A DNA stretch of 62,131 nucleotides. Origin: Cyanobium sp. C1_MAG_00004 (GTDB lineage Bacteria > Cyanobacteriota > Cyanobacteriia > PCC-6307 > Cyanobiaceae). Where the stretch lies: NCBI GenBank assembly GCA_027486935.1, contig JAIXOF010000016.1, positions 1-62,131 of the forward strand, in the 5' to 3' direction. Shown here piece by piece: positions 1 to 53,249 of the stretch. The translations under genes and the position numbers were made by a program. The notes beneath the pieces are model-generated. The model saw only the letters and a list, made by a program, of their open reading frames with translations, was not told where the DNA came from and did no database searches. Each line of letters begins with the position of its first letter. Positions within the stretch are counted from its first letter, which is position 1.

Positions 1-1043
1 AAAACGCATGCCTCCCGATCAATCGCGTCTTCCTCTCTGGGTTGCAGACGGAATGAACAGGGTTAAACAATTTTTATGCAAAAGACTAAGTTTGGAAGTG
101 TTGCGGTCAACAAGCCCAGAGCCAAAGCTCCACCAGCTTCCAGAGAAAACAGTACAATAGTGACCTTGGAATCGCCGTCGATCGCCGAGGATGTGGACCA
201 CCCAGAGAAAAAAAGAAAAAAGAGGGGGTATTCCCGTACGGGCACGAACGAACGACATGCGGCACTCAATGCAGCACACAGGCAGAACTAGAGATTGACC
301 ACATACTGTCGAAAAGCGTTGAGGCGAGAATAGATGTCGTCAATCGACGTTAAATCATGATTCCTGCAACGATAACAACAACGCAGTCAGATTTCAAACA
401 GGAACGAGATAACTGAACAATGTCGAATAGCGCGGCATTCTCGATAAAACGCAACACAGGCCATCAAGTCCTAATCGCTCAAGGCAACAAGGCCCGAAAT
501 CAACAGCAAGCGGAAACAGATAACGCATGGACGTTGTACGGCCATGGACAACTGCCACAGAAGTCTCTGCGCAAACCATTCCATTAGCGAGTGCACAGAA
601 ACATGCTGTGCCACCGCAACACGTTTGACATGACCAAAGCAGAACACGAAACAGGGTTGTGCTCAGCTGCTGGAGCAGGTACGAACCGCGACGATCTGCT
701 CGGGTCTTAAAAGACCCAGTGCCATTCACCTGAGCAAAGGAGCCCATCGCTCACGCCGTCACCGACCAAGGACAACCGGTTCGCCAACAAGGTCAAATCG
801 GGGTCACTGTTGATGGACACGCCTGAAGCGACGGCCATCGCAACAATCACAGCAAACGACGGCAGCCCTGGCAAATTGTTACAAATTCTAAAGTGCTGCA
901 CCATTGCAGCGCATAAAACGAACAAGCCCGCTAGAAAGGGTTGATGTCAATCTACGCATAAGGCGCTCAAAAAGAAGTTACAAACAGCCAATCTAGATCA
1001 GCTCAAACCGGGTCAAGAGTCAACAATCGCTAACATTGTCCCA
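1..1043. other. Gene-poor leader region before the low-GC sugar block
   Basis: No coding region here convinces me. A 71-codon plus-strand frame (76-291) and a cysteine-rich minus-strand frame (394-747) are open, but neither shows a domain, a clear ribosome site or codon use like the neighbouring genes. Base composition is lower in GC than the main chromosome and resembles the block that follows. A 10-bp palindrome CCCGTACGGG lies at about 234-243. I see no tRNA, transposase or clean promoter. It may be an intergenic region, a decayed gene or part of an acquired segment that begins left of the window. Confidence 0.4.
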
Positions 1044-3059
1044 ATGCCAGCCATCAGTCAGGTCACCAAGCGACATGCAGGCGGATTTGTTGATTATCAA
1101 CTACGCGTCTACCCAGGAAAAAAGGGTATAGAAAAAATATTACACATCGACTGCGTCAGCGATGAATTCGTGCCCAGGAGATGGCGGATAAAAACAAAAA
1201 CCGAAAAAAATCTCTGGGAAGCTACACTAAAACGCATTCGACCAGGAACAGGTCTATCACTCAAGATTGAATTAAATGATGGTCGAACAGTACCTTTTGT
1301 TCCCATCGGCGAATCCGATGTCGTCAACGGTGTAGTGCGCGTACCCGATTGTGATCCAACATGGTTAGATCATGCAGACGCCGCGTGCGGACAAACGATT
1401 CAGCATGGAAAGCAGAACATGTCAATTCTGCTGGAACAAACCCTGGAAGGCCTATTAGCTGACTATGACGAAGGAACATATTTCACTGATGCAGCGGAAG
1501 AGCTGCTCGCCTGGAGCATCGCTGCACGCATCTTGCAAACGCGCATTCCAGAGCAGATCAGAGATCTGGGCTACAACGAGATCATGTTTCCTCTCTATGC
1601 ATCAGTTGCTGACCGCTGCCATCTAGATCCAAAATTCAACTATTTGGTTTATAATCTTTCCACAGATTGGCAACTCGGCACAACTAGAGAACTGCGTTCA
1701 TTGGTTCAACGTTTTCGCGATTGTGGAATTGAGTTGGTGCCAGACCTGGTTTTCGTTCATCAGGTAAGCAACCCCTATGACGGCAGCAGCGATGACTTGT
1801 CAGAAAGAGATAGCGCCATTCGTCCTTATCAGGATACAGATCCTTACCTGTTTCGCGATTACGGAACCTGGCACTTTGACCTGGAAGACCCACTAATCCG
1901 CGAGATCATCATTGACAAAGTCATTGAGACAATTCTGACCCTAGACCTGCGCGTTATCAGAGTTGATTATATCGACGGGCTAATTATGCAATACGCAAAC
2001 AGGCCGACGAATTACAGCAAAATATTCTTGCGTGAATTAAATCAACGCATTCGACAGCTATGTCCAAATCTTCGCATTATTGGCGAAGCGTTTCAAACGG
2101 CTGGTGAGCAAGAGGTGATAGCAATGATTGATTCGGCCTATGCCCCAAGGGGCTTTGCTCTATTGGATTTGCTGTTGGCACCTGGCTATGACCATGGGCA
2201 AGTAATCAGAGGCTGCGTAGAAGGGCTAACAGAAGCCATTCAAGAATTCAACAATCAATCAAACAGAGAAAGCAACTACAGTCAACTTCACGATGAATGC
2301 TGGCAAGATGAATGGATCAGCCTTGGGCGCCCACACAGCCCATGGGCTTACGGGTCCATGCCCATGGGGTTATCACTGAGACGGATCGAAGATCTCATTC
2401 TGCATGGCTGGATTGATGTCAAAGATCGACTCAAAGCAGCAGCCTGCCTGACTCAGATGATTCGAGTTTTGGGTGTAACATTATCATTTAGCCGTTGGAT
2501 GGAAACCAGCGGTTACCTGAGCCTTGATCAAGGACGCCTGGATGAGAACAATCACTGGAAACTTACATGGAATACCAGTAGCAAGCTTTCGAAACAACTG
2601 TTTCCTGGCGAAGGGCTAACAAAGGAAGAAAGACAGGAGTTGCTGACCACAGTCAAGGCAAATATTGCAGCCACCAATCAATTATTGGGAAAAATTGGCA
2701 TTTCCGAGAGAAATCCCTTAGGAATGCCGTTACGTATGGTTCATGGCGATGTCCATAGTGGACTGACAGCGTTCGTTAGGTGGGGACGGAACTATCCGAA
2801 TCCAATCCTTGTACTCCTCAACCTAAGTCCACAAGCCTCTGGTAATGACCACGGGTACACCATCAACCTGAATACCGCGGGGTGGTCGACAAGCCAACAT
2901 CCACAAACCCTGAAGTCAATAATAACGCCACTTACCAACACCATTGAACATCCAGTACTGATGACTCAGAGCCGCGGCTCACCCGGTGAGTATGAATTAT
3001 CTCGTGCTTTAGATACCTACGAAGTTGCACTATTTGAGGTACCAATTCATGGTCAATAA
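1044..3059 (+). CDS. Divergent GH13 (alpha-amylase/branching-enzyme-like) protein, no signal peptide
   Basis: 671 residues and probably cytoplasmic. About the first 110 residues look like a beta-rich N-terminal domain. A GH13-type barrel follows: LGYNEIMFPL near 175 resembles the LGV.aI.l.P strand, and D234 and H239 in PDLVFVHQ match region I, with the usual Asn replaced by Val. Region II RVDYIDG puts the nucleophile at D308, region III IIGEAF the acid at E348, and region IV LHDE the third Asp at D417. A C-terminal beta domain follows, from about 560. All three catalytic carboxylates are present, so I expect glucan or disaccharide cleavage or transfer, but the substrate cannot be read. The ATG at 1044 begins the block. 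The end overlaps the next gene by 11 nt. Much lower GC than the rest of the window. Confidence 0.72.
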   Translation: MPAISQVTKRHAGGFVDYQLRVYPGKKGIEKILHIDCVSDEFVPRRWRIKTKTEKNLWEATLKRIRPGTGLSLKIELNDGRTVPFVPIGESDVVNGVVRVPDCDPTWLDHADAACGQTIQHGKQNMSILLEQTLEGLLADYDEGTYFTDAAEELLAWSIAARILQTRIPEQIRDLGYNEIMFPLYASVADRCHLDPKFNYLVYNLSTDWQLGTTRELRSLVQRFRDCGIELVPDLVFVHQVSNPYDGSSDDLSERDSAIRPYQDTDPYLFRDYGTWHFDLEDPLIREIIIDKVIETILTLDLRVIRVDYIDGLIMQYANRPTNYSKIFLRELNQRIRQLCPNLRIIGEAFQTAGEQEVIAMIDSAYAPRGFALLDLLLAPGYDHGQVIRGCVEGLTEAIQEFNNQSNRESNYSQLHDECWQDEWISLGRPHSPWAYGSMPMGLSLRRIEDLILHGWIDVKDRLKAAACLTQMIRVLGVTLSFSRWMETSGYLSLDQGRLDENNHWKLTWNTSSKLSKQLFPGEGLTKEERQELLTTVKANIAATNQLLGKIGISERNPLGMPLRMVHGDVHSGLTAFVRWGRNYPNPILVLLNLSPQASGNDHGYTINLNTAGWSTSQHPQTLKSIITPLTNTIEHPVLMTQSRGSPGEYELSRALDTYEVALFEVPIHGQ

Positions 3060-4104
3060 TTACACAATTTATCAGCAAGCACTTGATCTGCAAGCAAGCG
3101 GCTTCGACCGCTTTTCCTCAATTACGATCGGTGTTGGTATTGCAAAATTCCTGCAAATCTTACTGCCACAGCTCGCATATATTTTAACAGCATCTGTCAT
3201 CACCCCAGAACGGCTGATGCCAATTGCGCGCCTAGCACTTCCAGGCAGGACTTATGAATCACAAATCAATCTTGGCAAACATTGGATTAAGGGTGTTCAA
3301 CGCCTCCAGGGGTTCTTCGTCTGGAAATTGGCGTGCGACCTTGGCTTCTTTTTAATCGTGACACAATATGGCAGCTGGCTGAGAGCATTTACCCTATCTG
3401 GGCTCTTAACATATACCGCTTTCCAGTTTATTGTTTATTATTTGATAGGCCAAAAATTAATTTTAGGCAACCTTGCAAAAAGACAGAGTAAAAACAGGCC
3501 AAAGATTTATAGGACAACACGCTGGAAAAATCTCGTCTCAAAATTATTTTATGAAGAAATGGGTGTGACAGTGAGCCAGGTCAGCAGCAGAACAATCGTT
3601 GCCAAGTTTTTAGTCGACTACGGAGCGATGTGGGTCACCTGGTCTGCATATTCAATTGGTTTTTTTCTGTTCGCGAATGGTGGCTTAGGATTTGCTCCAT
3701 TTTTAATCTTCCCACATGTTTCAATGAGCAGCCTGTATATCTCAGTTTACCTTGGATATGCAGCTATGTTTACATTTACAGAAATCCTTCTACAGTCCAT
3801 TGCATTTCGGCCAAGGGTCCAGCCATGGACAAGAAAGCTGTTTCTTTCAACTCAGTTTAAACAGCTTCTAGCAACATTCGCTGTAACCTTAATCCTCCCA
3901 ATCTTAGTCAGCACCATGACATCAGGCTGGAAAGTTGTCGGATTAGCAACATCAAAAATTTCACGGGTCCAAGACCAGTGGAGTGTCTCACTCGAGGAAA
4001 ATGATCCACAGTGGAAAGCAAACAAACCAATATCGACAACCTGTGATCCTTCATGTTTACGCAAAATGTTCAGTAAAGGCCCCTATACCACCAACAATCA
4101 ATGA
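3049..4104 (+). CDS. Polytopic membrane protein of the sugar block, family unknown
   Basis: About 351 residues. I do not recognise a family. By eye there are five to six hydrophobic segments at roughly residues 33-52, 93-108, 115-138, 186-207, 213-250 (long enough for two) and 270-290. Basic stretches lie between them (for example 145-162), and a hydrophilic tail of about 60 residues contains a CDPSC motif. It sits between two GH13 proteins, overlapping the upstream gene by 11 nt and the downstream gene by ATGA, so translation is probably coupled. An alternative ATG at 3025 would add eight residues. It could be a permease, a flippase-like protein or a membrane partner for the anchored GH13 protein. 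The position, not the sequence, suggests this. Confidence 0.65.
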   Translation: MVNNYTIYQQALDLQASGFDRFSSITIGVGIAKFLQILLPQLAYILTASVITPERLMPIARLALPGRTYESQINLGKHWIKGVQRLQGFFVWKLACDLGFFLIVTQYGSWLRAFTLSGLLTYTAFQFIVYYLIGQKLILGNLAKRQSKNRPKIYRTTRWKNLVSKLFYEEMGVTVSQVSSRTIVAKFLVDYGAMWVTWSAYSIGFFLFANGGLGFAPFLIFPHVSMSSLYISVYLGYAAMFTFTEILLQSIAFRPRVQPWTRKLFLSTQFKQLLATFAVTLILPILVSTMTSGWKVVGLATSKISRVQDQWSVSLEENDPQWKANKPISTTCDPSCLRKMFSKGPYTTNNQ

Positions 4105-6137
4105 CAAAGCCGATCCGTAGCATTCCCGTCCTGGTATCGGCAGGCCTGGCCGTAACGTTGACTGCGATTGGATACGCCTTTGTTGTCCGACTGCCGTCGA
4201 CTGAGCCTGAATCAAAACTGTTGAGATCACCTTTTCAATCAGCTTTAGTCAACAAACAAAATGTTCCAGGCGAGTCTCCGACAGTAGCGACTAACGAAGA
4301 TATCGAAAGCTGGAGTGGTTACACGGGCAAGCTGGACAATGATATACTGTATTATATCTTTGTTGACCGCTTTTATGACGGAGACAAGTTAAACAATACT
4401 CCAAAAGTCAACCCAGCAATTAATGGTTCAGTTGCGACGACTCAGTTGGAGCAAAAGCTATCTGATTTAATTTATGACCCGAGTCACCGGCTTTTTGGTC
4501 TTTACTTTGGTGGTGACCTTGAAGGAGTGCGCAAAAAATTACCCTACCTTGCAGATCTAGGAATTACAAAAATTGTGATATCACCCATTCAGGAGGGTCC
4601 TCCAGGCTTTCGAATGCGTCAGGGTGCAAATTTATACTTGGATAATGGCGATGGTTCTTCAGATAAAACTAATCGCGCTAATTTACTCGCAAATTACCAC
4701 GGATACTGGATCAGGGATTGGTTTCGGCTTGATCCAAGAATGCGAAGCGGCAATGATCCAGACAGCCTTGCAAGCCTTAACAAGCTTCTTGATGAGGCCA
4801 AACAGGTTGGGATTGGAATCATCCTTGATATTACATTGCACCATACATCACTAGTAGCCAGCCAAAAATCTCTAGACTCAGGCTCCTCTGTCCAAAATAT
4901 CTTTCCTGCTCTAGGCGAAGTTAGGCGTAAAGGAATGATCTTGGCCAATGTCAATACAAAACCTGATTGGTACTATCCAATGTGCCAAATGGACTATGGA
5001 AGGCCAACATTGAGGATGCTGACTACATGTCAGATTGATATCGGACTCCCAACTCTCAATCATGAAAATCCAGTTGTCAAGGATTATTTGCTCGAAGCTG
5101 CAAAATTTTGGATGCGTGTCAATCCTGGAGGCGCCCAAGTTGCAGGGATCCGTATTGATGCAATTAAGCACATAAGCCCTAAATTCATACGAGATCTCGT
5201 AATATTGACTCGTAGCATCAACCCAAAAGCGGTTATTTTTGCAGAAGACTTTGGCGGAGGCTCTCAATCATCTACAACTTATGACATTCTTAATTCTGCA
5301 GGTGATATAAGCACGATTGATTTTGATTTTACTGATAGTATGCGATATTATTTTTCAGGTGACCGTTCTTGGACTGGTAACCGAACAAACGTAGAAGCTT
5401 CTTCCCTTGGCGATATTAATACTCAAGATATTTCGAGTATAACACCAAATTGGTTTGCCAATCCAGCCGGTGTCTTGACAGGAGTTCAGAATTCAACGCC
5501 CCTATTTCCAATTAATTATCCTGCATCAAAAAGTTGGATCACATCTCTAGAGACTCACGATGCGCCAAGGATGCGTACGTTTAGGCATCAGATGTCGAAT
5601 CAACAGTTTGCCGCGATGATTGCATTTCACTTCATTGCGAGGGGTGTACCGATGATCAACTATGGAGCAGAAATTGGGCTCTCGGTTCCGCCACTACCAA
5701 GAAATAATGGATTGAATGGATTAGGTGGAGACCCGTTCAACAGGCAAATGATGATTTGGCCGGGCCAGCCAGGTTTTAATCAGTATCTGCATGGAACGAC
5801 CAAGAAATATATACGAATTAGAAAGGAGAACCCAGTACTGCGCTATGGAGACACAGTATTTTTACGGACAATACCGGATCGGTGGCTGCATCGACCGTTA
5901 TTGATGTTGCGTGCATATAAGGATCAGTTATCAAATCCACCGCGAATCAACAATGGATTTCTTTATGCCTACTCACCCGAGGGCGGACGCTATGACTTTA
6001 AAATGCCAAACGGTTACCTATCAGCAAAAGAATTATGCGACGTAGACCTTGGTAAATGCATCAAGCCAAACGATCGCGGAATCTACAGCCTACTACTTAA
6101 ACCAAACAGTCATCGAGTCCTGGAGAGCAAATACTAG
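4101..6137 (+). CDS. Membrane-anchored GH13 alpha-amylase-family protein
   Basis: 678 residues. A hydrophobic segment at about 8-28 after a short basic start is a signal anchor or uncleaved signal, so the catalytic part should lie outside the cytoplasmic membrane. The GH13 barrel is clear: DILYYIFVDRF near 80, LADLGITKIVISPI near 150, region I D243-x-x-x-H-H248, region II GIRIDAIKH with nucleophile D353, region III FAEDF with acid E382 and region IV ETHDAP with D487. A C-terminal beta domain follows from about 580. The family cleaves or transfers alpha-glucosidic bonds; specificity is not evident. It starts by ATGA overlap with the membrane protein gene and ends 94 nt before the AGE-like gene. 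Confidence 0.82.
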   Translation: MTKPIRSIPVLVSAGLAVTLTAIGYAFVVRLPSTEPESKLLRSPFQSALVNKQNVPGESPTVATNEDIESWSGYTGKLDNDILYYIFVDRFYDGDKLNNTPKVNPAINGSVATTQLEQKLSDLIYDPSHRLFGLYFGGDLEGVRKKLPYLADLGITKIVISPIQEGPPGFRMRQGANLYLDNGDGSSDKTNRANLLANYHGYWIRDWFRLDPRMRSGNDPDSLASLNKLLDEAKQVGIGIILDITLHHTSLVASQKSLDSGSSVQNIFPALGEVRRKGMILANVNTKPDWYYPMCQMDYGRPTLRMLTTCQIDIGLPTLNHENPVVKDYLLEAAKFWMRVNPGGAQVAGIRIDAIKHISPKFIRDLVILTRSINPKAVIFAEDFGGGSQSSTTYDILNSAGDISTIDFDFTDSMRYYFSGDRSWTGNRTNVEASSLGDINTQDISSITPNWFANPAGVLTGVQNSTPLFPINYPASKSWITSLETHDAPRMRTFRHQMSNQQFAAMIAFHFIARGVPMINYGAEIGLSVPPLPRNNGLNGLGGDPFNRQMMIWPGQPGFNQYLHGTTKKYIRIRKENPVLRYGDTVFLRTIPDRWLHRPLLMLRAYKDQLSNPPRINNGFLYAYSPEGGRYDFKMPNGYLSAKELCDVDLGKCIKPNDRGIYSLLLKPNSHRVLESKY

Positions 6138-6231
6138 CAAGAACGCAACCTATTCATCTTTACAGTACGGCCTTATCATAGCCGATTCCTAACCAATTTA
6201 CCGCTCAATTTTGCCCTCTAAAGCATTAGTC

Positions 6232-7893
6232 ATGATCAAACCATCGGCAACTAAAATAATGATGAGCAAGCTCACAAAAATTCTTTTTGGTATCAGCTCA
6301 GGTTTTGCACTGCTTGCTTCAGCTGCAACACCTGCATTAGCCCAGTCCATCAAACAGCCAACAACTCAGCAGGAATGGATTGAGCACTTTGAAAATGATA
6401 TTTTGAGATTTTGGAGTACAGCTGATGCCCTTGGCATTCGAGGAAATCAAAAAGTCACACAGGGGAACTTTCCAACATGGCGCTGCAACAATGGGACGAT
6501 CTTTGATGACAAAGTTAACCCATGCAAGGAAATAATCAACGCCCCTACCTGGGTGGCCAATCATAAACTCCTTGACTATCTAAGAATGAAGTCAAGGCAA
6601 ACATACCTTTATGGTGTGGCCTATAATGTTACAGGGCAGGAGAAATATTTAAGCTGGATGCGAGACGGAATCCGGTTCATTGTTGATCGTGGCCTGATTG
6701 ATGGCGGCAAGGGTGGCGCTTATACCTATTGGCAAAATGGAAAGCCAGATAATTTGGGCTTGGCGCGAAACAGCCAAGACCTCTCCTATGTCATGCTGAG
6801 CCTAACCTACTACTACTATCTTACAAACGACGCTTCCATTTTGGCACCCATCGATAACCTAAAATCATATATTTTCAAGACTTATGCAGACAATGCAAGC
6901 TCAACCAATGGTAAAACATGCCTGAAATGGACTGCAAGCCGCCCGCCAGCAAACACAAATCCGCCATACAACCTAGATGAAAGCAGCAAGAAAGAGTTGG
7001 TAGCTCAGCTTGATCAAGCTAATGCTTATTTGTTGTTGGGTTCGACGAATTTGCCAGAACCGCAGCGTAGTCAATGGAAGAAAGACTTGAGAGGACTGGT
7101 CAATTGCATGCGCTTCGATTATCGGGATGAAAAGACGGGTTTAATCTGGGGTGCCATTGACCTCGATCGTCAAAAACATGTAGGGGGTCACAAGCATAAC
7201 GATTTTGGCCATACCGTCAAAACATACTGGACCATGTATTTGGCAGGCCGAATCCTTGGAGATACAGAACTGCAGACTTTTTCTCGCGACAACGGCCTGA
7301 AGATCCTGGCTTGGGCCTACGATACCAAGGATGGGGCATGGAATTCTCGCCCCTTGCCGAAGCCTGGACAGCTCGATTGCGAACAATCAGGCCCTAAAGC
7401 CTGTCCAATTGATCACAATAGAGACTGGTGGATCTATGCCGAGTTAGATCAGGGTGCCGCAACCCTGTCCCTTGACAAGCCAGATCCAGCGAGGAATTGG
7501 TTGGGTGTTGAGTTGCTTCGCACCCATGCCTACTGGCGTCAAAACTTCTTTGACAAGACCTATGGAGATGTTTGGCATCGCATAACAGTGGGCAAGAGTT
7601 GTGACCCTAACCTGCGCAATGAGGAAGATAGCTGTTTGCCTAAAGTCCACTTTTACAAAAACGGCTTCCATGTACCTGAACACTTGCTCGTGAGCTACCT
7701 CACAAGCTCGGCCAAACGTGGCCAAGCGGCGAGTCTTTATTTCGCTACCCCGAGCTGCAGCAAGCCGCGCACATACACGCCCTATAACCTGGTAGGGACG
7801 GCAAAAGTTGAAAGCTGCAAGCCATTTTCAGCTGGTCCCCTTGATAACAGCGGCCTGCAAAAAGTGAAGGTGACCTTCACAAATATCCGCTAA
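6232..7893 (+). CDS. Secreted AGE/cellobiose-epimerase-like alpha/alpha-barrel protein
   Basis: About 553 residues from the ATG at 6232. ATGs at 6259 and 6262 are equally possible and give a tidier signal peptide; a TTG at 6211 is less likely. The hydrophobic leader ends in ATPALAQ, a good signal-peptidase site, so the protein is exported. The rest is helical with paired aromatic-rich helices. Two signatures recall the N-acylglucosamine 2-epimerase superfamily: GHKHNDFGHTVKTYW (about 319-333), like the G-H-x-I-E-x-x-W motif, and DWWIYAE (398-404), like the WWVQAE motif. A later lysine followed by FH (H480) lies where that family has its second histidine. Several cysteines suggest extracytoplasmic disulfides. 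Substrate unknown; a hydrolase on the same fold is possible. Confidence 0.62.
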   Translation: MIKPSATKIMMSKLTKILFGISSGFALLASAATPALAQSIKQPTTQQEWIEHFENDILRFWSTADALGIRGNQKVTQGNFPTWRCNNGTIFDDKVNPCKEIINAPTWVANHKLLDYLRMKSRQTYLYGVAYNVTGQEKYLSWMRDGIRFIVDRGLIDGGKGGAYTYWQNGKPDNLGLARNSQDLSYVMLSLTYYYYLTNDASILAPIDNLKSYIFKTYADNASSTNGKTCLKWTASRPPANTNPPYNLDESSKKELVAQLDQANAYLLLGSTNLPEPQRSQWKKDLRGLVNCMRFDYRDEKTGLIWGAIDLDRQKHVGGHKHNDFGHTVKTYWTMYLAGRILGDTELQTFSRDNGLKILAWAYDTKDGAWNSRPLPKPGQLDCEQSGPKACPIDHNRDWWIYAELDQGAATLSLDKPDPARNWLGVELLRTHAYWRQNFFDKTYGDVWHRITVGKSCDPNLRNEEDSCLPKVHFYKNGFHVPEHLLVSYLTSSAKRGQAASLYFATPSCSKPRTYTPYNLVGTAKVESCKPFSAGPLDNSGLQKVKVTFTNIR

Positions 7894-7912
7894 GGGGCAG
7901 ACCAGCATGAAA

Positions 7913-7947
7913 GCGCAGATTGCCAGATCTCGACTGGCAATCTGCGC
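7913..7947. terminator. Perfect 14-bp inverted repeat between convergent genes
   Basis: Arms 7913-7926 and 7934-7947 are exact reverse complements (GCGCAGATTGCCAG) around a 7-nt loop. There is no strong T-tract on either side, so it is not a textbook intrinsic terminator, but its position 19 nt after the stop of the AGE-like gene and facing the convergent kinase gene fits a bidirectional termination or mRNA-end hairpin. A second 8-bp repeat (GTGAAGGT/ACCTTCAC, 7864-7880) lies just before the stop codon. The stretch 7948-8105 holds nothing else I can identify. Confidence 0.7.
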
Positions 7948-8105
7948 CGATCACGCTCTACGTCTCAAACAGTGAGACAAGGATCAGAGACCCAACCCAC
8001 TCGCCTGCTCAGAATGCCACGGGCAGCACTGAAATTGCGTATGTCGTCAAGCCACAACACAAGACCGTTGGCGCGGACAGGCGGACGTCAGCAAGGCAGA
8101 CGGGG

Positions 8106-9194
8106 TCATCGGCCTGTGAGCTCCGCGATCAAGGAGCGAATCGCCTGCTCCTGCGCTTCGACCGATTCTGTCAGCCTGAACTGCACCAAGGCACGGTCGA
8201 GGTTGTGGCGAGGGTGGTCGACCTTGAAATAGACGTTGCCAGCCAGATGGTCACTGAAGAAGCGCAGACCCAGCTCAAACGGCAATAGGCGGATCGCGTC
8301 ATAGAGGTGGGCAATGTCGTGCTCACTCAACAGGGAGCCCGCCTCGGCCAGATAACCGCTGAGCATGGCGCGGGCCATCACCAGATCAAAGTGCACCGAC
8401 GCCAGATCGGTCGTTTCTTCACCGGCGGGGTTGCAACCTGAACGCAAGGCATCGCCGATGTCGGTGTGGATCAGTCCAGGTTTGACAGTGTCGAGATCCA
8501 CCATCGCCACGGCACAGCCCGTGGCTGAGCAGAGCATCACGTTGTTGACCTTTGGATCGCCGTGGATCGGACGCAGCTGCAGTAGCCCTTCGGCCCTGGC
8601 CTGCTCGAGCACCGGCACCAGGGGCTGGCGCGCAGCGACAAAGGCGATGCACCAGGCCTGCTGGGGGTCCGCACTGGCTGGCCTGCGCTTCAAGGTCTGG
8701 ACGTACTGCGCGTAGTAGAGCGGGGTGATGTGAAACCCCTCGAGCGTGTCAGCCAGCTGCTCAGCCGGTAGGTCGTGCACCAAGGCATGAAAACGACCCA
8801 GACCGCGACCGATCTCGGCGGCCTGTTGGGGCGAGCTCAGCACGTCGGTGCTGTGGGCTCCGCTGATGTAAGTGAGCAGGCGCCACCAGTGGCCATCGCC
8901 ATCCTGATGAAGCCAGTCCGACGACACACGCTCGGGCAGGGGTTCGACAACCTGCCAGCCATCCTGGAGCCGCTTGCCCCGGCAGTGACGGGTGAGCGCC
9001 TGCAGATTGGCCATCACCAGGTCGGGCCGCTGGAACACCTCGGTGTTCAGCCGCTGCAACACGTAGCGGGTTCCGGACGTGGTCTCGACCCGGTAGGTGT
9101 CATTGACGTTGCCGTTACCGAGGGGCTCCACCGCGCAGGCAAGGCCGTCGATGGCGAAACAGTTGGCGAGTTCCGCCAGGTGTGCACTGCTCAT
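8106..9194 (-). CDS. APH-family sugar kinase, N-acetylhexosamine 1-kinase-like
   Basis: 362 residues from the ATG at 9194; an upstream in-frame GTG at 9230 is less likely. Kinase-fold signatures are clear: GNGNVNDTY near the N terminus as nucleotide loop, HGDPKVNNVML as catalytic loop, and VDLDTVKPGL followed by DIGDALRSG as metal-binding segment. This combination is typical of aminoglycoside phosphotransferase-like kinases of the NahK type, which phosphorylate N-acetylhexosamines at C1 with ATP. No signal peptide, so cytoplasmic. It converges on the secreted epimerase-like gene across a hairpin. Composition is closer to the chromosome than to the low-GC block, so linkage to that block is only suggestive. 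The exact substrate cannot be read. Confidence 0.72.
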   Translation of the reverse strand: MSSAHLAELANCFAIDGLACAVEPLGNGNVNDTYRVETTSGTRYVLQRLNTEVFQRPDLVMANLQALTRHCRGKRLQDGWQVVEPLPERVSSDWLHQDGDGHWWRLLTYISGAHSTDVLSSPQQAAEIGRGLGRFHALVHDLPAEQLADTLEGFHITPLYYAQYVQTLKRRPASADPQQAWCIAFVAARQPLVPVLEQARAEGLLQLRPIHGDPKVNNVMLCSATGCAVAMVDLDTVKPGLIHTDIGDALRSGCNPAGEETTDLASVHFDLVMARAMLSGYLAEAGSLLSEHDIAHLYDAIRLLPFELGLRFFSDHLAGNVYFKVDHPRHNLDRALVQFRLTESVEAQEQAIRSLIAELTGR

Positions 9195-9260
9195 GGGGCC
9201 ATGGTGGCGCCCCAGCCAACCCCTGCCCACCCCCTCGGCTTTGACTTGTCGTCGAGGTGT

Positions 9261-10028
9261 TTAGACCGTCGAAGCGGATTGCAGCCGCCGCCGCATGCGC
9301 CGGCTCCACCCGAGGGCTGCCATCACCCCGACAATGGGCAGGGGACCTGGGACACCAACGTTCGCTTGGCGGAAGGTGTTCGTGAAGCTGGTCAAGGCAC
9401 CTTGGCCACTGATGCTGTAGGTGTCGGTGATGTCCAGAGAGGTGTAGCCGCCAGCGATGGGGAAGAAGTCGCCGGTGTTTGGATCTGGGACACCATTCGA
9501 TGACGTCAATGTGGGGAATAGATTGCTGCCTTCAGTCTTAATAACAGTCGTACCTAAAACGCCAGCATCAACACTATCGATCTTGACACCCGTGTACACC
9601 CAGCCAGGGTTATTAACAATGTCAACAGTATACGACGTTGTCGCATTCACCACTGGCGGCAACAGCGGTCCATAACCCGACGAGCCTGGGGGCGGATTCA
9701 GAACAGGTTCAAAAAAAATGAACTGGACTGTGTAGACATCTTGAACAATAGTGGCTAGGCCAATGGTTCCAGAGCCCACGGTCGGCAACTGGGAAAAGGT
9801 TACACGCTTGTCACCAAATTGCAGCACTTGGTTGGCAGAGCATGCTCCATTGGGCCCGGCATATCCACCGAAATCACAAATGAATGCTGCCTCGGCAGCA
9901 CCTGAGAATGCCACGACACAGCCAGCTGAGGCGACGGCCGCGGCTACAACATTCTGAGCGACACGCCATGGTGTGGCTGCGCACTGGGAGATGAACGTCC
10001 TAAAAGTGTTGGTTCGCTGCAGGTCCAT
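9261..10028 (-). CDS. Secreted protein with PGPLP (PEP-CTERM-like) C-terminal tail
   Basis: About 255 residues from the ATG at 10028, which has GGGAG nine bases upstream; an ATG at 10052 is the alternative. A long N-terminal signal with hydrophobic core ends near SGAAEAA. The mature part is Ser/Thr/Gly/Pro-rich beta-type sequence with few cysteines. The C terminus is VPGPLPIVG, a short hydrophobic helix and RRMRRRL, the tripartite layout of PEP-CTERM sorting tails. It shares the tail and a GDK...T...P.(V/I)GSG segment with the two proteins at 15994 and 16815 but is otherwise divergent. Expected to be exported and processed by an exosortase-like enzyme, none of which is in this window. Function of the mature part unknown. 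Confidence 0.75.
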   Translation of the reverse strand: MDLQRTNTFRTFISQCAATPWRVAQNVVAAAVASAGCVVAFSGAAEAAFICDFGGYAGPNGACSANQVLQFGDKRVTFSQLPTVGSGTIGLATIVQDVYTVQFIFFEPVLNPPPGSSGYGPLLPPVVNATTSYTVDIVNNPGWVYTGVKIDSVDAGVLGTTVIKTEGSNLFPTLTSSNGVPDPNTGDFFPIAGGYTSLDITDTYSISGQGALTSFTNTFRQANVGVPGPLPIVGVMAALGWSRRMRRRLQSASTV

Positions 10029-10148
10029 CGCCGTCAACTCCCACCAGAGCATTGATTGAACGTTTGGACCCTAATCAGAACTCTGATGAGAACAGTGAGC
10101 CGGTGATGAGCCAACCCTGCAGCACGGTCGCTGCAACTGCTCAGGGTC

Positions 10149-12278
10149 TCAAAGCCCCGAATGGCGAATCAAGGCTTCGCTGCTGGGCTGCCGGCCCCTG
10201 AAGGCCTCGAAAATCTCGGCGGGGGCGCGGCTGCCGCCCAGGGACAGCACGGTGTCGCGAAAGCGGCGACCGGTGGCGACGACCTCGTCTTCGACATCAA
10301 GGCCCACCTCTTCAAAGGCGCTGAAGGCATCGGCGCTGAGCACCTCGGCCCACTTGTAGGAGTAGTACCCGGCCGCATAGCCACCGGCAAAGATGTGGCT
10401 GAAGGCGCACAAAAAGGCGTCTTCGGCAATGGGCTCAAGCACGGTGGTGGTGCGGGCGAGCTCGCGCCGCAGCTGTTCGGGGCTTTGGCCGCAGTCGGCC
10501 GTCCAGACGCTGTGCAGCCGCAGATCGGTCAGGGCGAAGTGCACCTGGCGCAGGGTGGCGCTGCCGCCCATGAAGGTGCGGGCCGCCAGCAGCTTCTGGT
10601 AGTCGGCCTCGGGCAGGGGTTCGCCCGTTTGCCAGTGGCGCGCCATGCCCATCAGGGTGGCGCGGTCGTAACACCAGTTCTCCATGAACTGGCTGGGCAG
10701 CTCGACGGCGTCCCACTCGACGTTGTTGATACCGGCGGCCTGGGGGCGATCCACGGTCGTGAGCATGTGCTGCAACCCATGGCCGAACTCGTGGAACAGG
10801 GTCTCCACCTCGTCAAAGGTCATCAGGCTGGGGGTCTGGCCCACCGGTGGGCTCTGGTTGCAGATCAGGTAGGCCACCGGCAGGACCGCCTGGCCGCTGG
10901 GGCTCACGCCGCGGCCCAGGCACTCGTCCATCCAGGCGCCGCCGCGCTTGCTGCCGGGGCGGCTGTAGGGATCGAGATAGAAGGCTGCCAGGGGGTTGCC
11001 GCTGGCCCCATCGAGCACCCGGAAGTAGCGCACATCGGGGTGCCAGCTGGGGGCGTCGCCGGCTTCGGTGGCCACGATGCGAATGTCAAACAGGCGCTGG
11101 CAAAGGCCGAACAAACCCTGCAGCACCTGCTCCAGCGGGAACCAGGGGCGCAGGGCCTCGCCGTCGAGCTCAAAGCTCTCTTGACGGAGCTTCTCGGCCC
11201 AGTAGGCCACATCCCAGGGTTTGAGATCGCCTGCCTCAGGGGCGCCGTGGCGGCTGGCAATGGCCCGCAGGGCATCGAGCTCGGCGGTGGCCACCGGATA
11301 GGCCGCCGCCCGCAGCTCTTCGAGCAGTTGCTCGACCTCGGCCACCGAACCGGCCATCTTGGACGCCAGGCTCACCTGGGCCCAGGTGCCATAGCCCAGG
11401 CGCTGGGCCTGCTGGTGCTTGAGGGTCAGGATCTGCTCGATCAGGGGGCTGTTGTCGAGCTCGCCGCTCGAAGCCCGCGCCACCTGGGCGCGGTAAACGG
11501 TTTCGCGCAGATCCCGCCGGGCGCTGTACTTGAGGAACGGCATCACCCGCGGCATGTCGAGGCCCAGGCGCCAACCCTGCTGACCCTCGCTGGCTGCGGC
11601 CTGGGCCAGCAGCTCGCGCAGGCTGGCCGGCAGACCGGCCAGCTGGGCCTCGTCGGTGAGCAGCAGGCTCCAGCCGTTGGTGGCATCGAGCACATGGTTG
11701 CTGTAGGTGGTGGCCAGCTCGGCCAGCTGCTGGCTGGCGGCGTTGAAGGCCTCCTGCTCGGCCCCGCGCAGACCGACGCCGCGCAGCTCCATGTCGCGCA
11801 GCTCGGCCGCCAGGATGCGCCGTTGGGTGGTGTCAAGACCGCTCTGGCCGGCGAGCTGCTGCAGGGCGCTGTGGATCACCTGCGACTGGCCGGCCCGGTT
11901 GCCAAAGGCCACCACCGCACCCTGCTGGCGCTGGTGGGCCTCGCGCAACTCGGGGGTGTTGCAGACCCCGTTGAGGTGGCTGACGACCCCCCAGCTCCAG
12001 CGCAACCGTTCGCCCAGATGGTGCAGCGGGTCCATCAGCTCGGCCCAGTGCAGTGGCTCGGCCTGGGGTGACGCGAGCCGTTGCCCCAGGCTGGTTTCAA
12101 GCGCGTCCAGCTCGGCCCCCAGTTCAGCCAGCAACTGGGGAATGGCCCGATCGACCTGGTCGGGGGTGATGGCGTTGAACTGGGGCAGCCCCTCGCCCAC
12201 CAACAGCGGCGAGGGCGAGGCGTCAGCTGAGCTCGCCGGTGCTGGTGCTGTCATGAACGCCGCTGCAATGGAGTCCAT
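10149..12278 (-). CDS. M3-family oligopeptidase (PrlC/oligopeptidase A-like)
   Basis: 709 residues. The zinc-binding motif HEFGH is at 496-500 inside LFHEFGHGLQHML, and the downstream ENW/Glu region that supplies the third ligand follows. Length and the mostly helical N-terminal two thirds fit the thimet/oligopeptidase A family, cytosolic zinc peptidases that degrade short peptides such as cleaved signal peptides. No signal peptide. An ATG at 12254 would shorten the N terminus by eight residues. It lies on the minus strand downstream of ndhD with a gap of about 43 nt. The opposite strand is open over long stretches, which is a composition effect and not a second gene. Confidence 0.92.
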   Translation of the reverse strand: MDSIAAAFMTAPAPASSADASPSPLLVGEGLPQFNAITPDQVDRAIPQLLAELGAELDALETSLGQRLASPQAEPLHWAELMDPLHHLGERLRWSWGVVSHLNGVCNTPELREAHQRQQGAVVAFGNRAGQSQVIHSALQQLAGQSGLDTTQRRILAAELRDMELRGVGLRGAEQEAFNAASQQLAELATTYSNHVLDATNGWSLLLTDEAQLAGLPASLRELLAQAAASEGQQGWRLGLDMPRVMPFLKYSARRDLRETVYRAQVARASSGELDNSPLIEQILTLKHQQAQRLGYGTWAQVSLASKMAGSVAEVEQLLEELRAAAYPVATAELDALRAIASRHGAPEAGDLKPWDVAYWAEKLRQESFELDGEALRPWFPLEQVLQGLFGLCQRLFDIRIVATEAGDAPSWHPDVRYFRVLDGASGNPLAAFYLDPYSRPGSKRGGAWMDECLGRGVSPSGQAVLPVAYLICNQSPPVGQTPSLMTFDEVETLFHEFGHGLQHMLTTVDRPQAAGINNVEWDAVELPSQFMENWCYDRATLMGMARHWQTGEPLPEADYQKLLAARTFMGGSATLRQVHFALTDLRLHSVWTADCGQSPEQLRRELARTTTVLEPIAEDAFLCAFSHIFAGGYAAGYYSYKWAEVLSADAFSAFEEVGLDVEDEVVATGRRFRDTVLSLGGSRAPAEIFEAFRGRQPSSEALIRHSGL

Positions 12279-53175: not shown

Positions 53176-53249
53176 TCGGAGCGGCGGGATTTGAACCCAC
53201 GACCCCCACTACCCCAAAGTGGTGCGCTACCAAGCTGCGCTACGCCCCG
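53176..53249 (-). tRNA. tRNA-Pro (anticodon GGG)
   Basis: 74-nt cloverleaf. The acceptor stem pairs CGGGGCG with CGCTCCG (one G-T) and the discriminator is A; CCA is not encoded. The anticodon stem CCACT/AGTGG encloses the loop TTGGGGT, so the anticodon is GGG, reading CCC/CCU. TTCAAATC is present in the T loop. A terminator with seven T lies about 44 nt downstream. Confidence 0.95.

Follow-up and report, generated by a model that had tools for sequence, protein, structure and literature searches.

A low-GC island in a Cyanobium genome carries a recurrent cyanobacterial cassette of two GH13 proteins and a membrane protein, a candidate envelope alpha-glucan module

What would a phototroph do with a block of genes of low guanine-plus-cytosine (GC) content encoding two glycoside hydrolase family 13 (GH13) proteins, a membrane protein and an exported epimerase-like protein, and do the four belong together? 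The question is raised by a locus near one end of a 62,131-nucleotide stretch of the Cyanobium sp. C1_MAG_00004 genome (contig JAIXOF010000016.1; this whole stretch is hereafter the window), in which an earlier note, made from the sequence alone, had described genes A to D as a single acquired system acting on an alpha-glucoside or oligosaccharide at the envelope. Our analysis supports acquisition and an alpha-glucan theme, and narrows the conserved unit to A, B and C. All four open reading frames (ORFs) were confirmed:

1044 to 3059, plus strand: gene A, an ORF of 671 amino acids
3049 to 4104, plus strand: gene B, an ORF of 351 amino acids opening at an ATG
4101 to 6137, plus strand: gene C, an ORF of 678 amino acids, predicted to encode an anchored, exported GH13 protein
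6259 to 7893, plus strand: gene D, 544 amino acids from the ATG at 6259; the ORF can open at the TTG at 6211

A, B and C recur with order and strand unchanged at 12 other loci, which lie in about ten cyanobacterial genomes (L017 and L019 of one genome; L020; L038 and L039 of one genome, with duplicates L049 and L050; L040 to L044; L046; and L048), among them a Synechococcus sp. UW140 metagenome-assembled genome (MAG; L040), Nostoc parmelioides (L042), Prochloron (L046) and a Trichodesmium MAG (L048). L044 has two additional ORFs separating B from C, and a contig end cuts the locus after A–B in L018/L051 and in L045. Relatives of A were found by an alignment-based contig scan, a scan with the single sequence of A having given no match. 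The cassette is rare: among 390 genomes in the class, 6, counting that of the window, have a match to A, and every relative found in a scan of ~85,000 species genomes was cyanobacterial. Locus L041 (CALPNT020000031.1) is labelled Bifidobacterium breve; its AcnB shares 84% identity with the AcnB of the window genome, identifying it as a mislabelled picocyanobacterium. Together with L040 it is the closest relative of the window cassette (60–61% identity in A, 70% in B and 69–73% in C), and in the tree of A the three group together with full support, on a long stem; the remaining A-B-C relatives share about 30–39% identity. Overlaps of 11 nucleotides (nt) between A and B, also preserved in L040, and of 4 nt (ATGA) between B and C bear out the tight junctions described earlier and suggest translational coupling of the three genes, which are presumably co-transcribed.

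Gene D appears to be a separate addition. A search for the four genes together elsewhere never found D beside A-B-C, and the A-B-C genomes checked yielded no close homologue of D. Its homologues (30–42% identity) occur in six other genomes of 291 sampled, including genomes without A-B-C, and lie mostly next to unrelated housekeeping genes (triosephosphate isomerase, IspD, a class I W/Y tRNA synthetase, MTHFR and glycerol-3-phosphate dehydrogenase) that offer no functional hint. In the two closest relatives the fourth slot is taken by a GH15 gene: in L041, C is followed by a GH15 glucoamylase that carries a glucodextranase N domain, and in L040 by the same gene broken by stops or frameshifts. 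Base composition in L040 and L041 is likewise mixed, with A-B-C at 51–56% GC and the GH15 region at 68–70%. We therefore rejected the idea that all four genes make up a single conserved system: by the earlier note's own refuting condition, that the four never occur together elsewhere, the four-gene claim fails, and a three-gene claim stands. The make-up of these loci is mosaic, the A-B-C core moving as a unit and the fourth place being filled variously. Nor did the proposed gap of under 100 nt before D survive, since the preferred start of D is the ATG at 6259, immediately 5′ of its signal peptide, rather than the TTG at 6211, which makes the C–D gap 121 nt and not 73. In L040 (6978–11668), C itself is also broken, along with the GH15 gene that follows it, by frameshifts or stops that represent either decay or assembly errors.

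As to the proteins themselves, profiles, hydropathy, predicted folds and residues all agree with the earlier assignment of A and C to GH13, of B as polytopic and of D as exported and epimerase-like, and with its placement of one catalytic protein inside the cell (the GH13 protein A) and two outside (the GH13 protein C and the epimerase-like barrel D). A is a signal-less, cytosolic GH13 protein with a branching-enzyme-like predicted fold, made up of an N-terminal beta domain, a (beta/alpha)8 barrel and a C domain; hydropathy gave no signal peptide or transmembrane segment. It carries the GH13 residues D234, H239, R306, D308, E348, H416 and D417, of which R306, D308, E348 and D417 are invariant across 16 sequences, except for D308 replaced by Ser in L020, so that 15 of the 16 hold the full catalytic set. 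Sequence similarity is distant: A falls below the cut-off of Pfam PF00128, matches the NCBIfam GlgB model PRK12313 at E 4e-5 (22.2 bits against a cut-off of 577), and its family profile reaches GlgB in PDB at 3.7e-7. The model (predicted local distance difference test score, pLDDT, 70; predicted template modelling score, pTM, 0.73) finds branching enzymes by Foldseek at 1e-20 and with a VIA Z of 24.3 over 518 residues at a root-mean-square deviation of 4.7. Compared with GlgB itself (GH13_9; e.g. that of Cyanothece sp. ATCC 51142, PDB 5gqu), A is alike in three-domain layout, GH13 residues and best fold matches, but differs in showing ~13–14% identity, and the window genome has a separate GlgB-like ORF, judged from its N-terminus, on contig C212. 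As the curated cut-off was not reached, A was rejected as a true GlgB. In Halothece-like genomes (L036, L037, L047 and L052) A stands without adjoining B or C, with a secreted amylase-like GH13 protein and a pullulanase in three of the four; there, A can work without B and C, or these lie elsewhere.

Gene C is predicted to encode an exported, anchored GH13 protein related to CGTase and neopullulanase. It matches PF00128 with 103.9 bits against a cut-off of 22 and has the complete triad D353, E382 and D487, plus R351 and H486; the Asp/Glu/Asp triad is complete in nine of 11 C sequences. By profile, the closest PDB sequences are CGTase 6wni (2e-48) and neopullulanase/TVAII. An N-terminal transmembrane anchor spans approximately residues 10–28, in place of which several homologues have apparently cleavable signal peptides. 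Scores against the curated equivalogs for cyclomaltodextrinase (87.2 against 540 bits) and maltodextrin glucosidase (75.6 against 568 bits) remain below the cut-offs, and C was rejected as a true cyclomaltodextrinase. It resembles the CGTase/neopullulanase/cyclomaltodextrinase group in its full-triad domain and closest profile, but differs from it in the membrane anchor, the coupling to A and B and these low scores. Second A-B-C cassettes occur in L019 (11434–13614) and L020 (7295–9301), in genomes that elsewhere hold a catalytically intact A (and C, where complete); the C of these second cassettes has lost its nucleophile, the A nucleophile of L020 is the Ser noted above, and the gene order is retained. 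Such retention despite lost C residues may reflect a non-catalytic, structural role of C next to B.

Between the two enzymes, B is a polytopic membrane protein with ~6 transmembrane helices by hydropathy and, by positive-inside count, both termini predicted outside. It matched none of the Pfam and NCBIfam models, including those of transporters, at E 0.1. The family has 30 invariant columns in 14 sequences; the model is of low confidence (pLDDT 61.5), without a Foldseek match at E ≤ 0.001, and its best VIA Z of 6 belongs to generic helical matches. Its placement would fit a role in transport.

D carries a signal peptide ending ALA-QS and had no match in Pfam or NCBIfam, but its profile aligns with cellobiose 2-epimerase 3vw5 at E 2.5e-17, residue by residue over the barrel. 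Counting residues from the TTG at 6211, R129, H334, W406/W407, E411 and H487 are conserved. Among the functional positions of cellobiose 2-epimerase, Arg52 and Trp303 have equivalents in D and Glu246 is replaced by Lys337. Equivalents are also present for Trp304, His243 and His374, the two histidines corresponding to H334 and H487, which are invariant in six homologues; the position of His184 is occupied by an invariant Asp268. The catalytic histidines of cellobiose 2-epimerase are His184, His243 and His374 (PMC13281645). D is an exported protein of the AGE/cellobiose-2-epimerase superfamily, alike over the barrel and retaining two of three catalytic histidines, and distinguished by its signal peptide and the replacements at His184 and Glu246; as His184 is not conserved, we rejected it as an ordinary cellobiose 2-epimerase. 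A second low-GC (~48%) region of the window genome (G000; L078 5144–9549, contig C87, ~19.1–23.5 kb) encodes a 717-amino-acid protein that combines an AGE-like stretch with a C-terminus of the anti-sigma-factor-antagonist type, adjoining the debranching enzyme GlgX, and again places an AGE-like protein beside an alpha-glucan enzyme.

The substrate is indicated by the company that the cassette keeps in other genomes. A secreted branching/amylase-like GH13 protein and a pullulanase, the latter with an N-terminal signal, adjoin the cassette or A in L017, L018, L036, L037, L038 and L052; a GH15 gene does so in L018, L040, L041 and L052; and an OprB carbohydrate porin follows C in L042. These neighbours tie A-B-C to alpha-1,4/1,6-glucan, sustaining the theme proposed earlier, and as gene content they favour breakdown and uptake. 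We therefore consider an envelope alpha-glucan module the best account of the locus, with a GH13 protein on each side of the inner membrane, a membrane protein between them and glucan scavenging as its function, at a probability of roughly 0.5. Under such a scheme, C would act on the periplasmic side of the inner membrane, cutting or transferring alpha-1,4/1,6-gluco-oligosaccharides, aided in other genomes by the secreted pullulanase, amylase-like GH13, GH15 and OprB porin; B would move the products through the membrane, or tether both enzymes to it; and A would process or transglycosylate them in the cytosol, supplying the glycogen/glucose pool. D, a feature of the window genome alone, could presumably modify a free sugar outside the cell, perhaps epimerising or isomerising its reducing end. 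Overall, a phototroph would thereby scavenge external or periplasmic alpha-glucans or maltodextrins, with uptake the presumed direction of flux because the neighbours are degraders.

Several observations weigh against this account. Roughly half the loci lack an alpha-glucan neighbour, and the window genome has neither a secreted pullulanase orthologue nor a GH15 gene. A transport function for B is putative, the protein belonging to no recognised family and having a low-confidence model without a fold match, and D has lost one of the three cellobiose 2-epimerase catalytic histidines. The nearest fold of A is a biosynthetic branching enzyme, which would suit glucan synthesis or export as well. 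Flux could accordingly run outwards, A building or branching a short alpha-glucan inside, B moving it out and C trimming or cyclising it into a periplasmic or surface glucan. That the closest solved sequence to C is CGTase, a transglycosylase, and that a GT2 gene lies near the L017 cluster would suit such a pathway, but the cassette holds no synthase, and secreted degraders (pullulanase and GH15) as neighbours elsewhere, with the OprB porin in L042, speak for breakdown; we consider export unlikely. It is also conceivable, if slightly more doubtful than export, that B is the first of a new family of translocators that move alpha-oligosaccharides across the inner membrane. It would form one complex with C outside and A inside, a bacterial analogue of rBAT/LAT that both cuts and carries and that differs from the ABC, MFS, PTS and Sus systems; D, its third histidine turned to aspartate, could be a new activity that replaces the glucoamylase in the fourth slot.

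A cassette without any shared function, no more than an assortment of carbohydrate genes gained horizontally, is an improbable explanation. It would suit D, which varies independently and never lies beside A-B-C elsewhere, and A without adjoining B and C in Halothece-like genomes; but the A-B-C order, often overlapping or close, is held at ~30% protein identity across distant cyanobacterial families, where drift would be expected to break it, leaving the idea plausible for D only. The last alternative borrows from the amino acid transporters rBAT/4F2hc (SLC3/SLC7; PMC8537225), which offer an architectural parallel of a single-pass GH13 ectodomain adjoining a polytopic protein: C might serve B as a chaperone-like accessory ectodomain, much as rBAT/4F2hc serves LAT, and the cargo of B would not be a glucan. 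The paralogous C copies of L019 and L020, still beside B after losing catalytic residues, are in keeping with this. The full triad in most copies of C, the apparently cleavable signal peptides of several homologues, the alpha-glucan neighbours and a B that is not recognisably an SLC7-type carrier argue the other way. The likeness is one of architecture only, and we regard this explanation as the least probable of all.

Glucan scavenging, the preferred account, shares its logic with maltodextrin uptake by the mal ABC importer and the Bacteroidetes Sus system, namely an outer enzyme, a membrane protein and an inner GH13 protein, but the island lacks an ABC importer, a binding protein and SusCD, and B falls in no recognised transporter family. 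In the open-access literature we found no description of the coupled A-B-C genes, of the B family or of an AGE-like protein paired with them; a cyclomaltodextrinase/neopullulanase orthologue group is mentioned in one paper on picocyanobacteria (PMC9361551). By sequence, then, each enzyme belongs to a known superfamily, and what appears new is the A-B-C coupling, the B family and the AGE-like pairing.

The acquisition of the cassette by Cyanobium is, like its anatomy, well supported. The four genes sit in an acquired island of ~8.3 kb that starts left of the window, on contig C212. The low GC of the block reported earlier was confirmed (A 0.47, B 0.43, C 0.44 and D 0.47, against 0.683 for window positions 8100–62131), and third-position GC contrasts equally (0.39–0.50 in the four genes against 0.79–0.87 in the adjacent kinase and peptidase). 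Three further features complete the part of the island within the window:

1 to 1043, no strand: left part of the island, ~50% GC, with no convincing gene
7894 to 8108, no strand: right edge of the island, with the end of an APH-family kinase gene at 8106–8109
7914 to 7948, no strand: a perfect 14-base-pair (bp) inverted repeat with a 7-nt loop, 3′ of D

The window begins at a contig end, and its positions 1–483 and the end of contig C212 of the same genome overlap with 15 mismatches (97% identity), oriented as two neighbouring contigs would be. Beside this join, C212 carries a gene for a 221-amino-acid protein, folB and proA, named by sequence and homologous synteny. In G001, G004 and G005, three congeneric genomes, proA, folB and the 221-amino-acid gene lead directly into the APH-family kinase gene, an empty site that leaves 63 bp between the last two genes in L079 and 48 bp in L081 (both gene ends aligned). 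With flanks ~50–60 bp apart in relatives, the ~8.3-kb block is an insertion into a short intergenic gap, and the foreign composition together with this empty site between intact flanks upholds the claim of acquired DNA. On contig-level evidence, an assembly chimera was rejected as the source of the GC step, given the 97% dovetail with the left contig and flanks that follow the order of the empty site. The dovetail itself (window 1–483 and L077 1–483) indicates that strain variants may have been merged by the assembly at the left island edge.

No integrase was noticed among the ORFs of window positions 1–12000, the island spanning a contig break; no tRNA was called at the island, the sole one in the window being at 53176; and flanking repeats were not the object of a dedicated search. 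No relatives of B were found in plasmids and none of A in viral contigs, so nothing points to a plasmid or phage as carrier. The hairpin said to end the block is real as a sequence (arms GCGCAGATTGCCAG and CTGGCAATCTGCGC), but as a terminator it is unproven, with no T-run after the repeat and no intrinsic-terminator call there. Beside the island, window positions 9261–10052 encode a PEP-CTERM-like secreted protein of lowered GC (56%) with a homologue in L081 and none found in L079 or L080, a spot that likewise varies among relatives.

Most cyanobacteria are regarded as producers rather than consumers of external alpha-glucans. The placing of a GH13 protein on each side of the inner membrane, and an unnamed membrane protein between the two, by a rare and mobile cassette suggests an overlooked route of glucan scavenging or secretion, and it makes the central question, whether B moves maltodextrins, a testable one.

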